Origin: Micromonospora sp. MP36
GTDB taxonomy: Bacteria; Actinomycetota; Actinomycetes; Mycobacteriales; Micromonosporaceae
DNA: 64,000 nt
Assembly (NCBI RefSeq): GCF_008119785.1
Contig: NZ_VSFA01000005.1
Span: 1-64,000, forward strand
Reading direction: 5' to 3'
Shown: positions 9,908-57,658 of the stretch, piece by piece
How the letters are laid out: each line of letters opens with the position of its first letter
How positions within the stretch are numbered: the first letter of the stretch is position 1
Made by a program: the position numbers and the translations under genes
The notes under the pieces: model-generated
What the model was told of the DNA's origin: nothing
Seen by the model: the letters and a program-made list of their open reading frames with translations, nothing else
The model's database searches: none

Positions 9908-10399
9908 TCAGGGCACCACCACGACGGGCCAGCGGCCGGCCCGCACCAGGCGGGTGGCGACCGAGCCGACCAGGCGGTGCCCGGCCTGCTCGGACGCCCC
10001 GACCACCACCAGGTCCGCGCGGGTCTCGTCGGCCGCCGCGCAGAGTTCGGTGTACGCGTCCCCGCGCCGGCAGAGGAAGGTGACCGGCAGGCCCAGTTCC
10101 TCGGCGCCGCGGCGGCACTCGGCGCGCAGTTCGGCGGCCAGTTCGTCGTGGGTCTGCTGGACCGCCCCGGCCACCACCCCGGTCATGATCCCGGCGTACG
10201 GGACCGGGGAGCTGACGAACACCACCACCAGGCCGGAGCGCTGCCGGCGGGCCAGCCCGGCCGCGTACGCGGCGGCCCGCAGCGAGGTGCGGGTGCCGTC
10301 CACGCCGACCAGCACCACCCGGGGGCCGTCCGTGCCGCGTTCGAACGGCAGCGGCCGGGCCTCCGGGCCGTACTTCTCACGCTCGACGGATGCGCTCAT
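9908..10399 (-). CDS. Universal stress protein (UspA family)
   Basis: The protein has 163 residues, a single Usp domain. The first strand 'VVLVGVDGTRTSLRAA' carries the conserved early Asp. The C-terminal ATP-binding signature G-x2-G-x9-G-S appears as 'GASEQAGHRLVGSVA', so this is the nucleotide-binding type. Usp proteins are stress-linked; the specific role here is unknown. The ATG at 10399 overlaps the stop of a 27-codon micro-ORF as ATGA. The micro-ORF in turn starts three bases after the MFS exporter gene. AGGGAGG inside the micro-ORF provides the ribosome binding site. Expression is therefore probably coupled to the upstream exporter. Confidence 0.88.
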   Translation of the reverse strand: MSASVEREKYGPEARPLPFERGTDGPRVVLVGVDGTRTSLRAAAYAAGLARRQRSGLVVVFVSSPVPYAGIMTGVVAGAVQQTHDELAAELRAECRRGAEELGLPVTFLCRRGDAYTELCAAADETRADLVVVGASEQAGHRLVGSVATRLVRAGRWPVVVVP

Positions 10400-10479
10400 G
10401 CCGTCGCCTCCCTACGGTCGGCGAAGCCATGCGGCATCGACGCGCTGAGCTGGCTGATTCGCTCGCTCCGCTCGCTCAT
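10396..10479 (-). CDS. 27-codon micro-ORF coupled to the stress-protein gene
   Basis: The reading frame from the ATG at 10479 begins MSERSERI and ends REATA before TGA (10396-10398). That TGA overlaps the ATG of the universal stress protein gene (ATGA). It starts three bases after the MFS gene stop and contains the downstream gene's AGGGAGG. A second micro-ORF of identical length and similar beginning sits at 56826-56909. I infer a translational bridge; whether a stable peptide is made is unknown. Confidence 0.5.
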   Translation of the reverse strand: MSERSERISQLSASMPHGFADRREATA

Positions 10480-10482
10480 GGG

Positions 10483-12102
10483 TCACTCCTGGATGCCGGT
10501 CCGGACCACCGGGGCGCCGCCGCCGGCCGCGACGGTCGACTCCCGCTCGATCTCGGCGGAGAGGGGGTCGCCGTTGTGCCGGCGCAGCGGTACTTCCTTG
10601 ATGAAGACGACCGCGATCAGCGCGATCAGCCCGAACGGGGCGGCGGCCAGGAAGATGTCCCCGGCACCGTGCCCGTAGGCGGCCTCGACGACCGCCCGGA
10701 TCGGGGCGGGCAGCGTGTGCACGTCGGGCAGGGTGCCGCCGCTGCCCGAGCTGGACGCCTTGATGCCGAGTCCGGCCAGCCCCTCGGCGAGGTAGTCCTT
10801 GACCTTGTGGCCGAGCACCGCGCCGAGCGCGCTCACGCCGATCGCGCCGCCGAGGCTGCGGAAGAAGGCGACCACCGAGCTGGCCGCGCCGAGTTCGTGC
10901 GTGCCGACCGTGTTCTGCACGGCGAGCACCAGGTTCTGCATGGTCATGCCCAGCCCCAGGCCGATCAGCGCCATGAAGATGGCGATCCGCCAGTACGGGG
11001 TGTCGGCCCGCAGCGTGCCCATCAGGGCGAAGCCGACGGTGAGCAGGGCGGAGCCGGCGACCAGGTAGCGCTTCCAGAGGCCGGTGTTGGTGATGATCCG
11101 GCCGACCACCGTGGAGGCGACCAGCAGACCGCCGATCATCGGCAGGGTCATCAGGCCGGACATGGTCGGGCTCTCGCCGCGGCTGATCTGGAAGTACTGG
11201 CCGAGGAAGACCGAGGCGCCGAACATGCCCACGCCGACCGCGATGCTGGCGACCACGGCGAGGCTGATGGTGCGGCTGCGGAACAGTCGCGGCGGGATCA
11301 TCGGCTCGCTGGCGCGCTGCTCCACCCGGATGGCGAGCGCGCCGAGCAGCACCGCGCCGGCCACCATGACGGCGCTCTGCCAGGAGATCCAGGCGTACCG
11401 GTCGCCGGCGAGGGTGACCCAGATGAGCAGCAGCGAGACCGCTGCCGTGATGAGGGTGGCGCCCCACCAGTCGATCTTCGCCGGGCGCTTCACCACGGGC
11501 AGGTGCAGGGTCTTCTGGAGCACGATCAGGGCGAGCGCGGCGAACGGCACGCCGACGTAGAAGCACCAGCGCCAGCCGAGCCAGTCGGTGTCGACGATCA
11601 CGCCACCGATGAGCGGGCCGCCGATGGTGCCGACGGCCATCACGGCGCCGAGGTAGCCGCTGTAGCGGCCGCGCTCGCGCGGGGCGATCATCGTCGCCAT
11701 GATCACCTGGGCGAGGGCGGTCAGGCCGCCCGCGCCGACGCCCTGGAGCACCCGGCAGGCAATGAGCTGACCGGTGGACTGGGAGAGCCCGGCCAGCACC
11801 GAGCCCAGCACGAAGATGCCGAGGGCGAGCTGGACCAGGAGCTTCTTGCTGGTCAGGTCGGCGAGCTTGCCCCAGATCGGGGTGGTCGCGGTGGTCGCCA
11901 GCAGTGTGGAGGTGACCACCCAGGTGTACGCGGACTGGCCGCCGTGCAGCTCGGTGATGATCCGCGGCAGCGCGTTCGAGACGACCGTGGAGGAGAGGAT
12001 CGCGACGAACATGCCCAGCAGCAGGCCGGAGAGTGCCTCCAGGATCTGCCGGTGGGTCATGTCGCCGGCGGTCGCCCGGGTGGGCGCTGTCGCCTGGGTC
12101 AT
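10483..12102 (-). CDS. MFS drug exporter, DHA2 (14-TMS) family
   Basis: The protein has 539 residues. The ATG at 12102 is preceded by GGAGG at a good distance, giving MTQATAPTRA. DHA2/EmrB-QacA features are visible: 'LDxxVVxxALP'-like 'LSSTVVSNALPRI' in helix 1, 'WVVTSTLLATTATTPIWGKLAD' (motif A region after helix 2), and 'RVLQGVGAGGLTAL' (helix 4 motif). About 14 hydrophobic segments extend to residue 510. These proteins export drugs or antiseptics using proton motive force. The MarR regulator gene lies immediately upstream on the same strand. Two palindromes in the gap between them suggest MarR-controlled, drug-inducible expression. It is followed by the micro-ORF and usp. Confidence 0.9.
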   Translation of the reverse strand: MTQATAPTRATAGDMTHRQILEALSGLLLGMFVAILSSTVVSNALPRIITELHGGQSAYTWVVTSTLLATTATTPIWGKLADLTSKKLLVQLALGIFVLGSVLAGLSQSTGQLIACRVLQGVGAGGLTALAQVIMATMIAPRERGRYSGYLGAVMAVGTIGGPLIGGVIVDTDWLGWRWCFYVGVPFAALALIVLQKTLHLPVVKRPAKIDWWGATLITAAVSLLLIWVTLAGDRYAWISWQSAVMVAGAVLLGALAIRVEQRASEPMIPPRLFRSRTISLAVVASIAVGVGMFGASVFLGQYFQISRGESPTMSGLMTLPMIGGLLVASTVVGRIITNTGLWKRYLVAGSALLTVGFALMGTLRADTPYWRIAIFMALIGLGLGMTMQNLVLAVQNTVGTHELGAASSVVAFFRSLGGAIGVSALGAVLGHKVKDYLAEGLAGLGIKASSSGSGGTLPDVHTLPAPIRAVVEAAYGHGAGDIFLAAAPFGLIALIAVVFIKEVPLRRHNGDPLSAEIERESTVAAGGGAPVVRTGIQE

Positions 12103-12134
12103 CGTGATTGCCTCCGGAGCAGGTCGGGGGATGG

Positions 12135-12176
12135 GTTGCCTCAGGCAACCGTAGGACCTTGGTTGCCTCAAGCAAC
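12135..12176. promoter_or_regulatory. Two tandem MarR-type operator palindromes
   Basis: GTTGCCTCAGGCAAC (12135-12149) is a perfect 7-bp inverted repeat around one base. GTTGCCTCAAGCAAC (12162-12176) is the same with one mismatch. Their centres are 27 bp apart. They lie 33-74 bp upstream of the MFS start and downstream of the marR stop. Motif form and position fit a MarR operator on the exporter promoter; this is inference. Confidence 0.7.
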
Positions 12177-51765: not shown

Positions 51766-52950
51766 GTGGCGAGTCAGGGTCAGCGTTTCCGGCGTAAGGC
51801 GCTCCGCCGGGGTTACAAGGTCGACGAGGTGGACGCCTTCCTGGACCGGGTGGAGGCGACGCTCGCCGGCCAGCCGGTCGGCGCGCCCGTGGCTTCCCAG
51901 GAGGTCCACGACGTCGTCTTCCGGGTCCGGTTCAACGGCTACGACGAGTGGCAGGTCGACCTGCACCTCGACCGGGTGGAGCGGCAGTTGGCCGAGCTGG
52001 AGGAGCGCGGCGGCACCCCGGGCGGGCGCGTCCCTGACCCCCGAATGGCTGACCGGCTCGGCCCGCCGATGCGCGACGACCGGGGCCTGTCGCCGGTGCC
52101 GCAGCCGCCGATGCCGCCCCGAGGGATGCCCGCCCAGCCCGGCCCGCCCGACCGCTACGGCAGCCGCTACGACGAGCCCGTCGGGGGCGGCCGCTACGAC
52201 GAGCCCGTCGGGGGCGGCCGGTACGACGAGCCCGTCGGGGGCGGCCGCTACGACGAGCCCGTCGGCGGCGGCCGCTACGACGAACCGACCGGCGGCGGCC
52301 GCTACGACGAACCGACCGGCGCCTTCGCCGGCGGTTACGACGGCCCGCGCGGGTACGACGCCCCGCGTGGTCCGGCCGGCCCCGGACCGATGGGTCCCAA
52401 CGCCCCGATGGGGCACGGCGGCCCGCCCTCCCGTGGGCTGCCCCCAGGCCCCGGCGGGTACGGCCCGGACGACCGGTTCGACGGTTTCGAGGCCGGCCGG
52501 CGCGGCCGCCCCGACATGACCGCCGAGATCCGGATGCCTGACCGGGACCTGCGTGACCCGCGCGGCCGCGGCCCGGCCGGCCCGCCGCCCGTGCCCCAGC
52601 AGGGCTTCGGGGGTGGCCCGGCGATGTCCGGCCCGCCGATGGCCGGTCCGCCCGTGGCGGGGCCGCCGATGGTCGGCCCGCCGATGGCCGGCCCGCCCGG
52701 CAGTGAGCTCTACCGGGTGGACCAGATCCGCCGCAGCTTCCAGGTGCGCCGCTTCGGCAGCGGGTACGACCCGGACCAGGTCGACCGGTTCTTCGAGACC
52801 CTGCTCGGTGGCATGCAGGGCCGCAACCCGATGCCGGTGAACCCGAATGACCTGGACACCCTGCGCTTCGGGCTGGTGCCGGGCGGCTACTTCGAGGCCG
52901 AGGTCGACGCCGCCCTCAAGGACGTGCAGGACATCCTGCTCGGCCGCTGA
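51766..52950 (+). CDS. DivIVA-domain repeat protein
   Basis: The protein has 394 residues. Three copies of a DivIVA-type motif can be seen: residues 7-33 ('RGYKVDEVDAFLDRVEATL'), residues 54-76 ('NGYDEWQVDLHLDRVERQL') and near the C-terminus ('FGSGYDPDQVDRFFETLLGG'). The middle is Pro/Gly/Arg-rich and includes six copies of RYDEP(V/T)GGG (from residue 134) and several MAGPP repeats. DivIVA proteins sense negative membrane curvature and organise polar growth. This domain arrangement resembles the DivIVA-motif repeat proteins annotated near rlmN in actinobacteria; the exact role is unknown. Confidence 0.8.
   Translation: MASQGQRFRRKALRRGYKVDEVDAFLDRVEATLAGQPVGAPVASQEVHDVVFRVRFNGYDEWQVDLHLDRVERQLAELEERGGTPGGRVPDPRMADRLGPPMRDDRGLSPVPQPPMPPRGMPAQPGPPDRYGSRYDEPVGGGRYDEPVGGGRYDEPVGGGRYDEPVGGGRYDEPTGGGRYDEPTGAFAGGYDGPRGYDAPRGPAGPGPMGPNAPMGHGGPPSRGLPPGPGGYGPDDRFDGFEAGRRGRPDMTAEIRMPDRDLRDPRGRGPAGPPPVPQQGFGGGPAMSGPPMAGPPVAGPPMVGPPMAGPPGSELYRVDQIRRSFQVRRFGSGYDPDQVDRFFETLLGGMQGRNPMPVNPNDLDTLRFGLVPGGYFEAEVDAALKDVQDILLGR
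52165..52326 (+). repeat. 27-bp tandem repeat encoding RYDEPVGGG, six copies
   Basis: Six in-frame 27-bp units encode RYDEPVGGG four times and RYDEPTGGG/RYDEPTGAF twice. Third-position changes (CGC/CGG, GGG/GGC, GAG/GAA) show units have begun to diverge. Copy number may vary between strains. Confidence 0.9.
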
Positions 52951-55230: not shown

Positions 55231-56829
55231 TCAGCGGCCCAGGTCGGCGAGGATGCGCTGGGCGGCGTTGTGGCCGGCCGCGCCGATCACGCTGCCGGCG
55301 GGGTGGCAGCCGGCACTGCCCGCGTACACCCCGTCGACGCCGGTGGCGTACGGCATCCGGTCGGTGAACGAGACGGTGTTGTCGACGTGGTGGATGTGAC
55401 CGCCGGTGATGCCGAAGTGCGCCTCGATGCCGGGCGGGGGCAGCGGCACCGCGTCGGCGATCAGGTCGCCGGTGCCGGGCGCGTACCGCTCGCAGACCGC
55501 CACCAGCTTGTCGACGTAACCGGGCAGCGCCTCGTCCCAGGTGGTGCCGGCCAGCTCGTACGGGACCGACTGCACGAACAGGGCCGAGGAGTGGTGCCCG
55601 GCGTCGTCGGCCAGCGACGGGTCGACCGTGGTGTGCAGGTACCACTCGATGGTCGGCTCCTCCGGCAGCCGCCCGGCCTGCACGTCCGCCCACATGGCGC
55701 GCAGCGCGGCCATCGGCGACTCGCCGCCCTGGCCGACCAGCGATGCCGAGCCGGGGAGTAGGTGGATGGTGGAGCCGAACGGGTTGGGCGCGTCGGTCGG
55801 CAGGCAGGAGAACCGGGGCAGGCCGCGCAGTGCCAGGTTGAGCTTGAGCGTGGTGCCGGGACGGCGGACCGCCGCCATCCGCGCGGCCAGCGGCGCCGGG
55901 AGCGCGCCGTCGGGCAGCAGCTGAATCAACCGGTACGGGTCGCAGGCCCCGAGCACCACCGCGGCGGTCACCTCCCGCCCGTCGGCGAGGACCACACCGG
56001 ACGCCGCGCCGCCGGCCAGCGTGATCCCGGTGACCGGCGTACCGGTCCGGATGCGGGCCCCGGCGGCGCGGGCGGCCTCGGCGAAGGTCCGGGAGACGGT
56101 GCCCATGCCGCCCTGGGCGATCATCCAGGTGCCACCCGACCCGGGCAGCCGGCACATGTTGTGCACCAGGAAGTTGTGCCCGGTGCCGGGGTCGTCCGGG
56201 CCGGCGTTGAGGCCGGAGAGGCCGTCGGTGACCGCGTACATGCTGACCAGCAGCTCGGAGTGGAAGTCGAAGCGGGCCAGGTAGTCGGCGACCGAGCCGC
56301 GGACCAGGTCGACGAAGGCCTGCCGCAGGGCTGGTCGGACGTACCGCTCGGCGGTCTCCTCCACGGGTAGCGGCTCGGTCAGCCAGGCCGGCGCCAGGTC
56401 CTCGCGGAGCTGGGCCAGCTCGGCCTGGAGCGCGTCGTCGGCGGCCGCGTCGGCGGGGGAGAACATCTCCGCGAGCTGCCGCCGGCTCGCCGCGGCGTCG
56501 CTGCCGAAGAGGAGGTACGGCGCGCCGAGCCCGCCCGGGGTGGGCAGGAAGTAGTGCGGGTCGCGGCGCAGCACCGGGATGCTGACGTCGAGCGTGGCGA
56601 GCAGCTCCGGCGGCATCAACCCGAGCAGGTACGAGCCGGTGGAGTGGCGCAGGCCGGGCACCTTGGGGAACGGGCTCTCCGTCCGGGTGGCCCCGCCGAT
56701 CACCTCGGCCGCCTCCAGGACCAGCACGTCGAGGCCGGCGCGGGCCAGCAGGATGGCCGAGACCAGACCGTTGTGGCCGGAGCCGACCACGACGACGTCG
56801 GCGCGGGACGGCAGCTCACTCTCGCTCAT
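55231..56829 (-). CDS. FAD-dependent oxidoreductase, phytoene desaturase/PYROXD2-like
   Basis: The protein has 532 residues. The FAD beta-alpha-beta motif is 'VVVVGSGHNGLVSAILLARAG' in part, with 'LEAAEVIGGATRTE' as the second strand. The C-terminal FAD block includes 'FTDRMPYATGVDGVYAGSAGCHPAGSVIGAAGHNAA' in part. The family includes phytoene desaturase-like amine oxidases and PYROXD2. No carotenoid genes are nearby, so its substrate is open. The ATG at 56829 overlaps the stop of a 27-codon micro-ORF as ATGA; a TetR gene lies just upstream in the same direction. Confidence 0.9.
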   Translation of the reverse strand: MSESELPSRADVVVVGSGHNGLVSAILLARAGLDVLVLEAAEVIGGATRTESPFPKVPGLRHSTGSYLLGLMPPELLATLDVSIPVLRRDPHYFLPTPGGLGAPYLLFGSDAAASRRQLAEMFSPADAAADDALQAELAQLREDLAPAWLTEPLPVEETAERYVRPALRQAFVDLVRGSVADYLARFDFHSELLVSMYAVTDGLSGLNAGPDDPGTGHNFLVHNMCRLPGSGGTWMIAQGGMGTVSRTFAEAARAAGARIRTGTPVTGITLAGGAASGVVLADGREVTAAVVLGACDPYRLIQLLPDGALPAPLAARMAAVRRPGTTLKLNLALRGLPRFSCLPTDAPNPFGSTIHLLPGSASLVGQGGESPMAALRAMWADVQAGRLPEEPTIEWYLHTTVDPSLADDAGHHSSALFVQSVPYELAGTTWDEALPGYVDKLVAVCERYAPGTGDLIADAVPLPPPGIEAHFGITGGHIHHVDNTVSFTDRMPYATGVDGVYAGSAGCHPAGSVIGAAGHNAAQRILADLGR

Positions 56830-56909
56830 GCGGCCGCCTCGCTCCGCTCGGTGGCCGCATGAGGCTCCACGGCACTGCGCCAGATGATTCGCTCGATGCG
56901 CTCGCTCAT
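56826..56909 (-). CDS. 27-codon micro-ORF coupled to the oxidoreductase gene
   Basis: From the ATG at 56909 the frame begins MSERIERIIWRSAVEP and ends RSEAAA before TGA (56826-56828), overlapping the oxidoreductase start as ATGA. It begins 11 bases after the TetR stop. Length and opening residues match the micro-ORF at 10396-10479. Confidence 0.5.
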   Translation of the reverse strand: MSERIERIIWRSAVEPHAATERSEAAA

Positions 56910-56920
56910 GCTCGGGCAGC

Positions 56921-57658
56921 CTAGTGGCGCGCGCCTCCCTCGGGGAGGGCGTCGCCGGGTTCGGCCGGGCGGAACTGGCGGAGCTGGCTGATCAACTCGG
57001 TCTCGAAGAGCGCCTCCGGCTCGTCGACCGCCCAGCCGAGGTGGCCGAAGACCTCCATGGCGACCAGGCCGTAGAGCCGGGTCCAGGCGGACAGGAAGGC
57101 GTACGCGACGTCGATCGGCAGCGGGCCGTGGTTGGCCGCCAGCGGGGCGAGGTGCCCGCCGAGCCGTTCCTGGAGCAGCTCCGCCGGTGGGGTGGGCAGC
57201 GGCCGGCCCCGGGTGAGTTCCACGAACGGGGTGAGGAAGACCGCGCCGAGGCGCGCCCCGGGGTGGTCCGGGTCGCCGCACCCGTCGGCGAACTCGATCA
57301 TCCCGGGGACCGGGTTGCCGAAGATCAGGGTGAACTCGGCGGGGTGCCCCACGGCCCAGCGCCGCAGGGCTCGGCACATCTCGAGGAGCTGCCCGGCCGG
57401 GTCGGGACCGGACCTGTCCCGGGCCGCCTCGACCTCCTGGCGCAGCTCGTCGTACAGGTCACCGGCGAGCCCGACGACCAGCGCTTCGAGGCTGGGGAAG
57501 TACCGGTAGATCGCCGGGGCGGTCATGCCCATGTCCCGGGCGATCGCCCGCAGCGAGACCGCCTCGATCCCGCCGGTCACCAGCAGTCGCCGTGCCCCGT
57601 CCTTGATCTCGGACAGGGTCGCCGTACGCAGGCGTTCCCGCCGGGTGGGTGCGGTCAT
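56921..57658 (-). CDS. TetR-family transcriptional regulator
   Basis: The protein has 245 residues. The N-terminal helix-turn-helix is 'ARRLLVTGGIEAVSLRAIARDMGMTAPAIYRYFPSLEALV' in part. The C-terminal TetR_C domain is rich in Leu/Ala, for ligand binding. A perfect 10-bp inverted repeat lies between it and the divergent MMPL transporter gene. This is the classical arrangement of a repressor controlling itself and an efflux gene. The C-terminal tail is short and acidic. Confidence 0.92.
   Translation of the reverse strand: MTAPTRRERLRTATLSEIKDGARRLLVTGGIEAVSLRAIARDMGMTAPAIYRYFPSLEALVVGLAGDLYDELRQEVEAARDRSGPDPAGQLLEMCRALRRWAVGHPAEFTLIFGNPVPGMIEFADGCGDPDHPGARLGAVFLTPFVELTRGRPLPTPPAELLQERLGGHLAPLAANHGPLPIDVAYAFLSAWTRLYGLVAMEVFGHLGWAVDEPEALFETELISQLRQFRPAEPGDALPEGGARH

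Follow-up and report, generated by a model that had tools for sequence, protein, structure and literature searches.

A dispersed, probably mobile MIRU-like repeat at start codons of Micromonospora and other actinobacteria

Two micro-ORFs that bridge unrelated genes in a Micromonospora genome are, at the DNA level, copies of a repeat of about 80 bp that is dispersed in that genome, and the copies are alike in DNA sequence and structure more than in the peptide they encode. We consider it very probable that both sites carry a mobile repeat, resembling the MIRUs (mycobacterial interspersed repetitive units), which sits at RTGA start codons and whose coupled ORF restarts the ribosome on the following gene. 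The features that we discuss lie in the window, the whole stretch of 64,000 nt that was analysed (Table 1). An earlier note had pointed to two 27-codon micro-ORFs on the minus strand, each with a TGA overlapping the next ATG, and their positions, lengths and peptides hold when read from the sequence. As it also had it, they start 3 and 11 nt past the stop of the previous gene and their neighbours are unrelated, Pfam assigning MFS_1 and Usp at the first site and TetR and an FAD/amine oxidoreductase at the second. The two copies align over all 84 nt with no internal indel; their shared opening, GAGCGAGCGNANCGAGCGAATCA, has two matches in the window at up to three mismatches and none in any of 100 shuffles. 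Elsewhere in the window (positions 52159-52310) there is a 27-bp tandem repeat of 5.6 copies with 93% matches.

Table 1. Features at the two sites in the window
Feature	Positions	Strand	Basis or remark
Site 1 micro-ORF, 27 codons, MSERSERISQLSASMPHGFADRREATA then stop	10396..10479	-	TGA overlapping next ATG
Site 2 micro-ORF, 27 codons, MSERIERIIWRSAVEPHAATERSEAAA then stop	56826..56909	-	TGA overlapping next ATG
Site 1, probable MIRU-like element of about 80 bp at the Usp gene start codon	10400..10479	-	copy of genome-wide repeat; 28 of 30 orthologous loci without full element
Site 2, probable MIRU-like element of about 80 bp at the FAD oxidoreductase gene start codon	56830..56909	-	orthologue comparison
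Site 1 left hairpin	10457..10479	-	covariation over other copies
Site 1 right hairpin, imperfect, Usp start codon in 3' arm	10395..10433	-	columns 47-85, i+j=132; RNA fold
Site 2 left hairpin	56887..56909	-	sequence and covariation over other copies
Site 2 right hairpin, near-perfect, FAD gene start codon in 3' arm	56825..56863	-	alignment columns 47-85, covariation, RNA fold
Site 1 AGGAG, Shine-Dalgarno-like, now 5' of micro-ORF	10486..10490	-	read from sequence
Site 2 TAGGCT, -10-like box, 8 nt before micro-ORF ATG	56918..56923	-	sequence, orthologues
Universal stress protein (Usp) gene, downstream of site 1	9908..10399	-	Pfam PF00582
MFS transporter (MFS_1), upstream of site 1, start uncertain	10483..12171	-	Pfam PF07690
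FAD-dependent/amine oxidoreductase gene, downstream of site 2	55231..56829	-	Pfam PF01593, PF01266
TetR regulator, upstream of site 2	56921..57658	-	Pfam PF00440, PF13305

The genome that holds the window (Micromonospora, 9.17 Mb in 339 contigs) contains 29 matches to the 25-nt opening at up to three mismatches. A sequence-only model of 86 columns returned at least 77 matches at E<=0.01, the number being a minimum because 150 of 22,985 first-look candidates were scored, and the DNA around these matches holds at least 76 distinct copies, all of which were analysed. Within the genus, 26 of 37 genomes contain the exact pattern, and none of 24 genomes from other families of the order does. Among the matches listed, it is also found in Plantactinospora, Phytohabitans, Catellatospora, Nocardia, Nocardioides, Aeromicrobium, Kitasatospora, Streptomyces, Nonomuraea, Microbispora, Actinoallomurus and Actinopolymorpha, as well as others; 22 such carrier genomes have between 1 and 86 copies at up to two mismatches. 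The reversed pattern is absent from the window's own genome, from all order relatives checked and from all 22 carriers. In a sample of the phylum, made up of 246 mostly small genomes, our own was the one genome with the exact pattern. The distribution across actinobacteria is thus patchy. A search of plasmid and phage collections with one 86-nt copy (distant mode, E<=0.001) found no match, and none of five loci matched an Rfam family at the gathering threshold. The dispersed cassette of the earlier note is borne out by the genome-wide copies and by presence and absence at orthologous start codons.

Tandem copies with micro-ORFs in succession occur at a period of 80 bp (L033, L062 and L091) or 77 bp (L088, L103 and L114), and in a Catellatospora genome (G354) at 68-71 bp; periods of 80, 77, 71 and 68 are what a chain of ATGA/GTGA overlaps would give, and 69 does not obviously match. 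At three other loci (L018, L022 and L024) a remnant of the right end of the element lies just 5' of the copy, as if the element had landed on the start codon of another element.

Comparison with element-free orthologues shows that, at each of the two window sites, about 80 bp are inserted precisely at the start codon. The comparison was read by eye over the best 30 loci per site, drawn from 77 and 54 matching genomes. At the first site the element is present in 2 of these 30, the window itself and a relative (G080) whose two downstream proteins are both 96% identical to ours; two further orthologues (L207 and L211) may retain a remnant of the right end. At the second site the same two genomes have the element, 4 loci have different short insertions at that codon, and 24 have none. 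An element-free orthologue of this site reads ...CACTAGGCTGCCCGGGC directly followed by ATGAGCGATGCGAGTGAGCTG, and the window reads ...CACTAGGCTGCCCGAGC, then the element from ATGAGCGAGCG to GCGGCCGC, then ATGAGCGAGAGTGAGCTG. Genome-wide, 58 of the 76 copies directly abut an ORF of at least 80 codons. The old start signals of the gene now precede the micro-ORFs: a Shine-Dalgarno-like sequence lies 5' of 95 of 147 copies, as against 22 of 147 at a position fifty nt upstream, and TANNNT at leaderless distance precedes 8 of 147 copies and 1 of 147 controls. Many element-free orthologues of the second site have the TAGGCT box at the same spacing from the gene's own ATG, and the start at this site may be leaderless. 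Elements of several types seem to share start codons as hot spots. Two orthologues of the FAD oxidoreductase (L171 and L178) carry a 57-bp unit twice in tandem at this start codon, in frame with the gene, forming an N-terminal extension with a GAGCGNAGCGAGG core, and a third (L185) has one; the 57-bp unit is apparently a different short start-codon element. Further short repeated units of about 26-33 nt, each starting ATGAGCG, lie at start codons in L190 and in L005 (around 1500-1620).

Two sense-strand hairpins of the element are under compensatory constraint, and the right one usually encloses the downstream start codon. The left hairpin, of 23 nt, consists of R1-Y23, T2-A22, a tandem G.A, G5-C19, C6-G18, a second tandem G.A, G9-C15 and C10-G14, closed by a GNA loop; in the second window copy the pair C10-G14 is broken by a T at position 14. 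GCGNAGC mini-hairpins are known to be specially stable, and sheared tandem G.A pairs have a preference for context. Across copies, the first and last bases of the left hairpin form a Watson-Crick pair in 144 of 152 (AT in 87, GC in 57), the exceptions being A.C (6) more often than G.T (2). In 24 of 132 copies the start base on the left is not the one on the right, and in 22 of these 24 telling copies the base of the left RTGA matches Y23 of the element itself and not the start base of the host. Among 101 variant 25-mers, all eight double changes at left-stem partners restore Watson-Crick pairing (four at 6-18, three at 9-15, one at 5-19), and the 60 non-partner combinations together have four double changes. 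These 25-mers were taken from the listed matches of our own genome and the 22 carriers (for the carriers, only from among the matches listed), and the set omits the conforming rows but one, as well as the second window copy with its T at position 14. At the inner pairs of the left stem, wobbles of the T.G type outnumber mismatches of the C.A type by 30 to 6. With this bias, and because the G.A pairs exist on the sense strand alone, the structure should act at the level of the mRNA, of single-stranded DNA of the sense strand, or of both.

With both hairpins scored over 60 copies, 91.7% of the cells are paired, compared with a shuffled mean of 82.3, and 117 cells are changed on both sides, compared with 33.5; neither value was reached in 500 shuffles. 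Sliding the register reduced pairing to 20.7-48.3%. On one of the five measures, the count of pairs altered at both partners, 9 of the 500 shuffles reached the observed value. In the right hairpin (columns 47-85) 10 of 16 pairs have changes on both sides, and the right start base covaries with its arm; three of the right-stem pairs often fail, in 30, 21 and 14 of the 60 copies. The innermost pairs are favoured in this test, as 65 of 100 same-length copies were picked by a recognisable right core, and 60 of those 65 were used, with four Streptomyces copies that have another right half and the tandem locus L344 left out. When 131 coupled copies were folded, 3.1 of the 4 bases of the downstream RTGA were paired, as against 1.5 after shuffling, and this pairing is weaker in other lineages (2.25 against 1.27 in the 26-codon class, 1.8 against 1.18 in the 23-codon class). 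The RNA fold z-scores of the window copies are -2.45 and -1.11. As isolated DNA, the left hairpin has an energy no better than that of shuffles and the energy model picks another register, so that energy folding by itself supports the hairpins weakly. The register chosen by the DNA energy model (i+j=26) was rejected on two grounds: C15 is mostly constant although base 11, with which it would pair, differs in 16 of 101, and Y23 changes along with R1 whereas there is hardly any variation at A4.

What is kept along with the structure is an open reading frame coupled to the gene; the peptide is not kept. In our genome the repeat ORF terminates in RTGA in 66 of 76 copies, running directly onto the 58 ORFs of at least 80 codons, via a further short RTGA-linked ORF in 7 and otherwise in 1; the RTGA lies three codons 5' of the gene start in two of the 66 (L361 and the second copy of L344). 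Six of the 76 read on for at least 60 codons (L026, L347, L352, L354, the second copy of L024 and L358), L358 doubtfully, with 74 codons and a right end without a start codon, and three have no left RTG; the closest RTG, up to about 16 nt away, was counted as the left start. The coupled ORF measures 14 to 36 codons and has 27 codons in 44 of 66 copies. At L344 two tandem copies are merged into one ORF of 54 codons that still ends ATGA on the gene. In the loci of several genomes, 132 of 152 exact matches (19 from our own genome, 133 from others) are coupled; the rest comprise 14 long ORFs, not each of them checked, 4 with other stops, 1 TTGA and 1 at a contig end. The pattern used outside our genome demands a left RTGAGCG, so that left starts are selected for there, and the own-genome model was likewise built from copies with an RTGAGCG left end; the copies are related, and the frame counts are not independent. 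In three copies (L343, L349 and L353) a 4-nt loop in the left hairpin is offset by a compensating shift, so that the middle is read in another frame and the ORF still ends RTGA. In four Nocardia loci (L092, L097, L123 and L139), from four species, the opening runs in frame into an ORF of about 350 codons with like N-termini, probably one inherited N-terminal extension.

The earlier note had offered a conserved short peptide as an alternative, and a functional micropeptide (MSERSERI...) selected for itself is consistent with N-terminal residues that recur in many genera, with a frame that stays open and with the pair-restoring changes that are synonymous (T6-A18, A9-T15). This reading nevertheless fares badly and is in our view very improbable: three of the eight left-stem double changes (G6-C18, C9-G15 and C5-G19) alter residues yet keep the pair, the frame-shifted copies read the middle of the peptide in another frame, repeat ORFs of 14-17 codons exist, and the tails differ by lineage. 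Selection on a peptide gives no account of the covariation of the start base with codon 8 (144 of 152), and four repeat peptides matched no Pfam or NCBIfam family up to E=10. The MIRU-type copies described below are read in two different frames (L261, L263, L266 and L286 in one, L284 and L287-L291 in the other), which also argues against a conserved peptide. That the resemblance arose by chance among GC-rich, low-complexity gene starts could draw on the repetitive character of the sequence, with its GAGC units, but has a negligible probability given the empty window shuffles, the silence of the reversed pattern in our genome, the order relatives and the 22 carriers, and a covariation score that 0 of 500 shuffles reached. 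A fixed, non-mobile regulatory RNA hairpin, evolved independently at many genes as a means of tuning translation, would explain why strand-specific hairpins enclose the start codon and why T.G-type wobbles exceed C.A-type mismatches by 30 to 6 in the inner left stem; we hold it unlikely, because near-identical copies stand at unrelated genes of one genome, tandem copies exist, and presence and absence are patchy at the orthologous start codons of both window sites.

The reading that we prefer, a mobile MIRU-like repeat, has a precedent. MIRUs are widely used in tuberculosis strain typing. The earlier note knew of no named element of this kind, a statement that does not stand in view of what a passage of a 2025 review (PMC12548453, citing Supply 1997) says of MIRUs, namely that they appear mobile, insert at start codons and have an ORF coupled at -4. 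According to excerpts of two other papers, they measure 40-100 bp and occur at 41 places in one genome (PMC2734929), and those of senX3-regX3 are confined to M. leprae and the M. tuberculosis complex (PMC4213456). Like MIRUs, the present element is a short interspersed repeat at start codons, at both window sites, and has an internal ORF with a -4 overlap to the next gene, in our own genome and in other genera; tandem copies occur in both, and both are said to appear mobile.

We also searched 201 genomes in the family of a Nocardia with a MIRU-type core pattern. It had a match in 31 genomes, four of which stood out with 6, 7, 21 and 31 matches; since the reversed pattern had one match each in 13 of the 201, most of the 31 are at noise level. 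In the genome with 21 matches, a repeat has a histidine kinase gene on one side and, on the other, the gene of a response regulator, a regX3 orthologue (closest solved relative RegX3, 2oqr, E 3e-143); as this is where MIRUs are described, we take these repeats as MIRUs. Of 27 MIRU-type copies, 21 have an ORF from DTGA to DTGA, by a test that accepts any DTGA within 75 nt upstream, and 17 of the 21 ORFs are 50 or 53 nt long. The core GAGCGNAGCGA, with its tandem G.A pairs and GNA loop, is seen in these copies as in ours and is probably common to the present element and MIRUs, although the MIRU-type copies were fetched by a pattern that contains it. Unlike those single-hairpin copies, the present element is mostly 80 nt long and has an added left hairpin, RTGAGCGAGCGNAGCGAGCGAAYCA; length alone does not exclude a MIRU, given the 40-100 bp in the excerpt of PMC2734929. 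Also unlike MIRUs, it is found outside the mycobacteria (Micromonospora, Catellatospora, Nocardia, Actinoallomurus, Streptomyces and Nocardioides). The present repeat is therefore a longer, two-hairpin, non-mycobacterial variant of the MIRU kind and would work like a MIRU. A literature search judged on titles and the beginnings of abstracts turned up no MIRU-like element outside the mycobacteria, and the terms Micromonospora, Streptomyces and Mycobacter- are absent from the main text of the RepRanger paper (PMC12306157).

As to what moves the element, a Y1 transposase was considered and rejected: the domain (PF01797, E<=0.001) was not detected in 6 of 11 carrier genomes, nor in 3 of 4 MIRU-type genomes, and no copy of the element lies at the loci of the eight Y1 matches in our genome, one of which (L155) has a loose core match with one mismatch and no element. 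REP and IS200/IS605-type elements have imperfect hairpins that are specific to one strand and stand on a short target motif. The present element shares these features but differs in that no Y1 (HUH) partner was found, Y1 being the nuclease family searched; the covariation of R1 with Y23, and of the right start base with its arm, is compatible with pairing-guided single-strand transposition in the style of those elements. Rickettsia palindromic elements are compatible with the reading frame of the host and lie in frame inside proteins. Here, too, a palindromic repeat is compatible with the frame of a gene, but it precedes the gene with a stop-start overlap and reads on in 6 of 76 copies.

We propose that the element would move by transposition and insert exactly at the RTGA start codon of a gene, its left RTG taking over the old Shine-Dalgarno sequence or leaderless -10 box. 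The ribosome would then start at the element, translate the micro-ORF and in so doing open the right hairpin, stop at the TGA that overlaps the displaced start codon, and restart on the gene. Possibly, the right hairpin hides the start of the gene until the micro-ORF has been translated, and the hairpins may double as handles for movement. Insertion at a start codon would be nearly neutral, because the ORF of the element would hand the ribosome on to the downstream gene by reinitiation. More speculatively, and with considerable doubt on our part, MIRUs could belong, as one branch, to a family of hairpin elements that is found across the actinobacteria and homes on start codons by base pairing: an internal CTCAY or CTCGC arm would pair with RTGAG at the target, the left RTGA would go along with the element, a single-strand nuclease would move the sense strand, and the same hairpin would then hide the start until the ORF is translated. 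Soil-actinobacterial relatives, rich in structure, with pairs of loci with and without the element in closely related species and with their compensatory changes, make both the movement of MIRUs and their siting at start codons testable. For annotation, actinobacterial proteins that start with MSERSER... or VSERSERT... may carry the repeat as an N-terminal extension or follow it.
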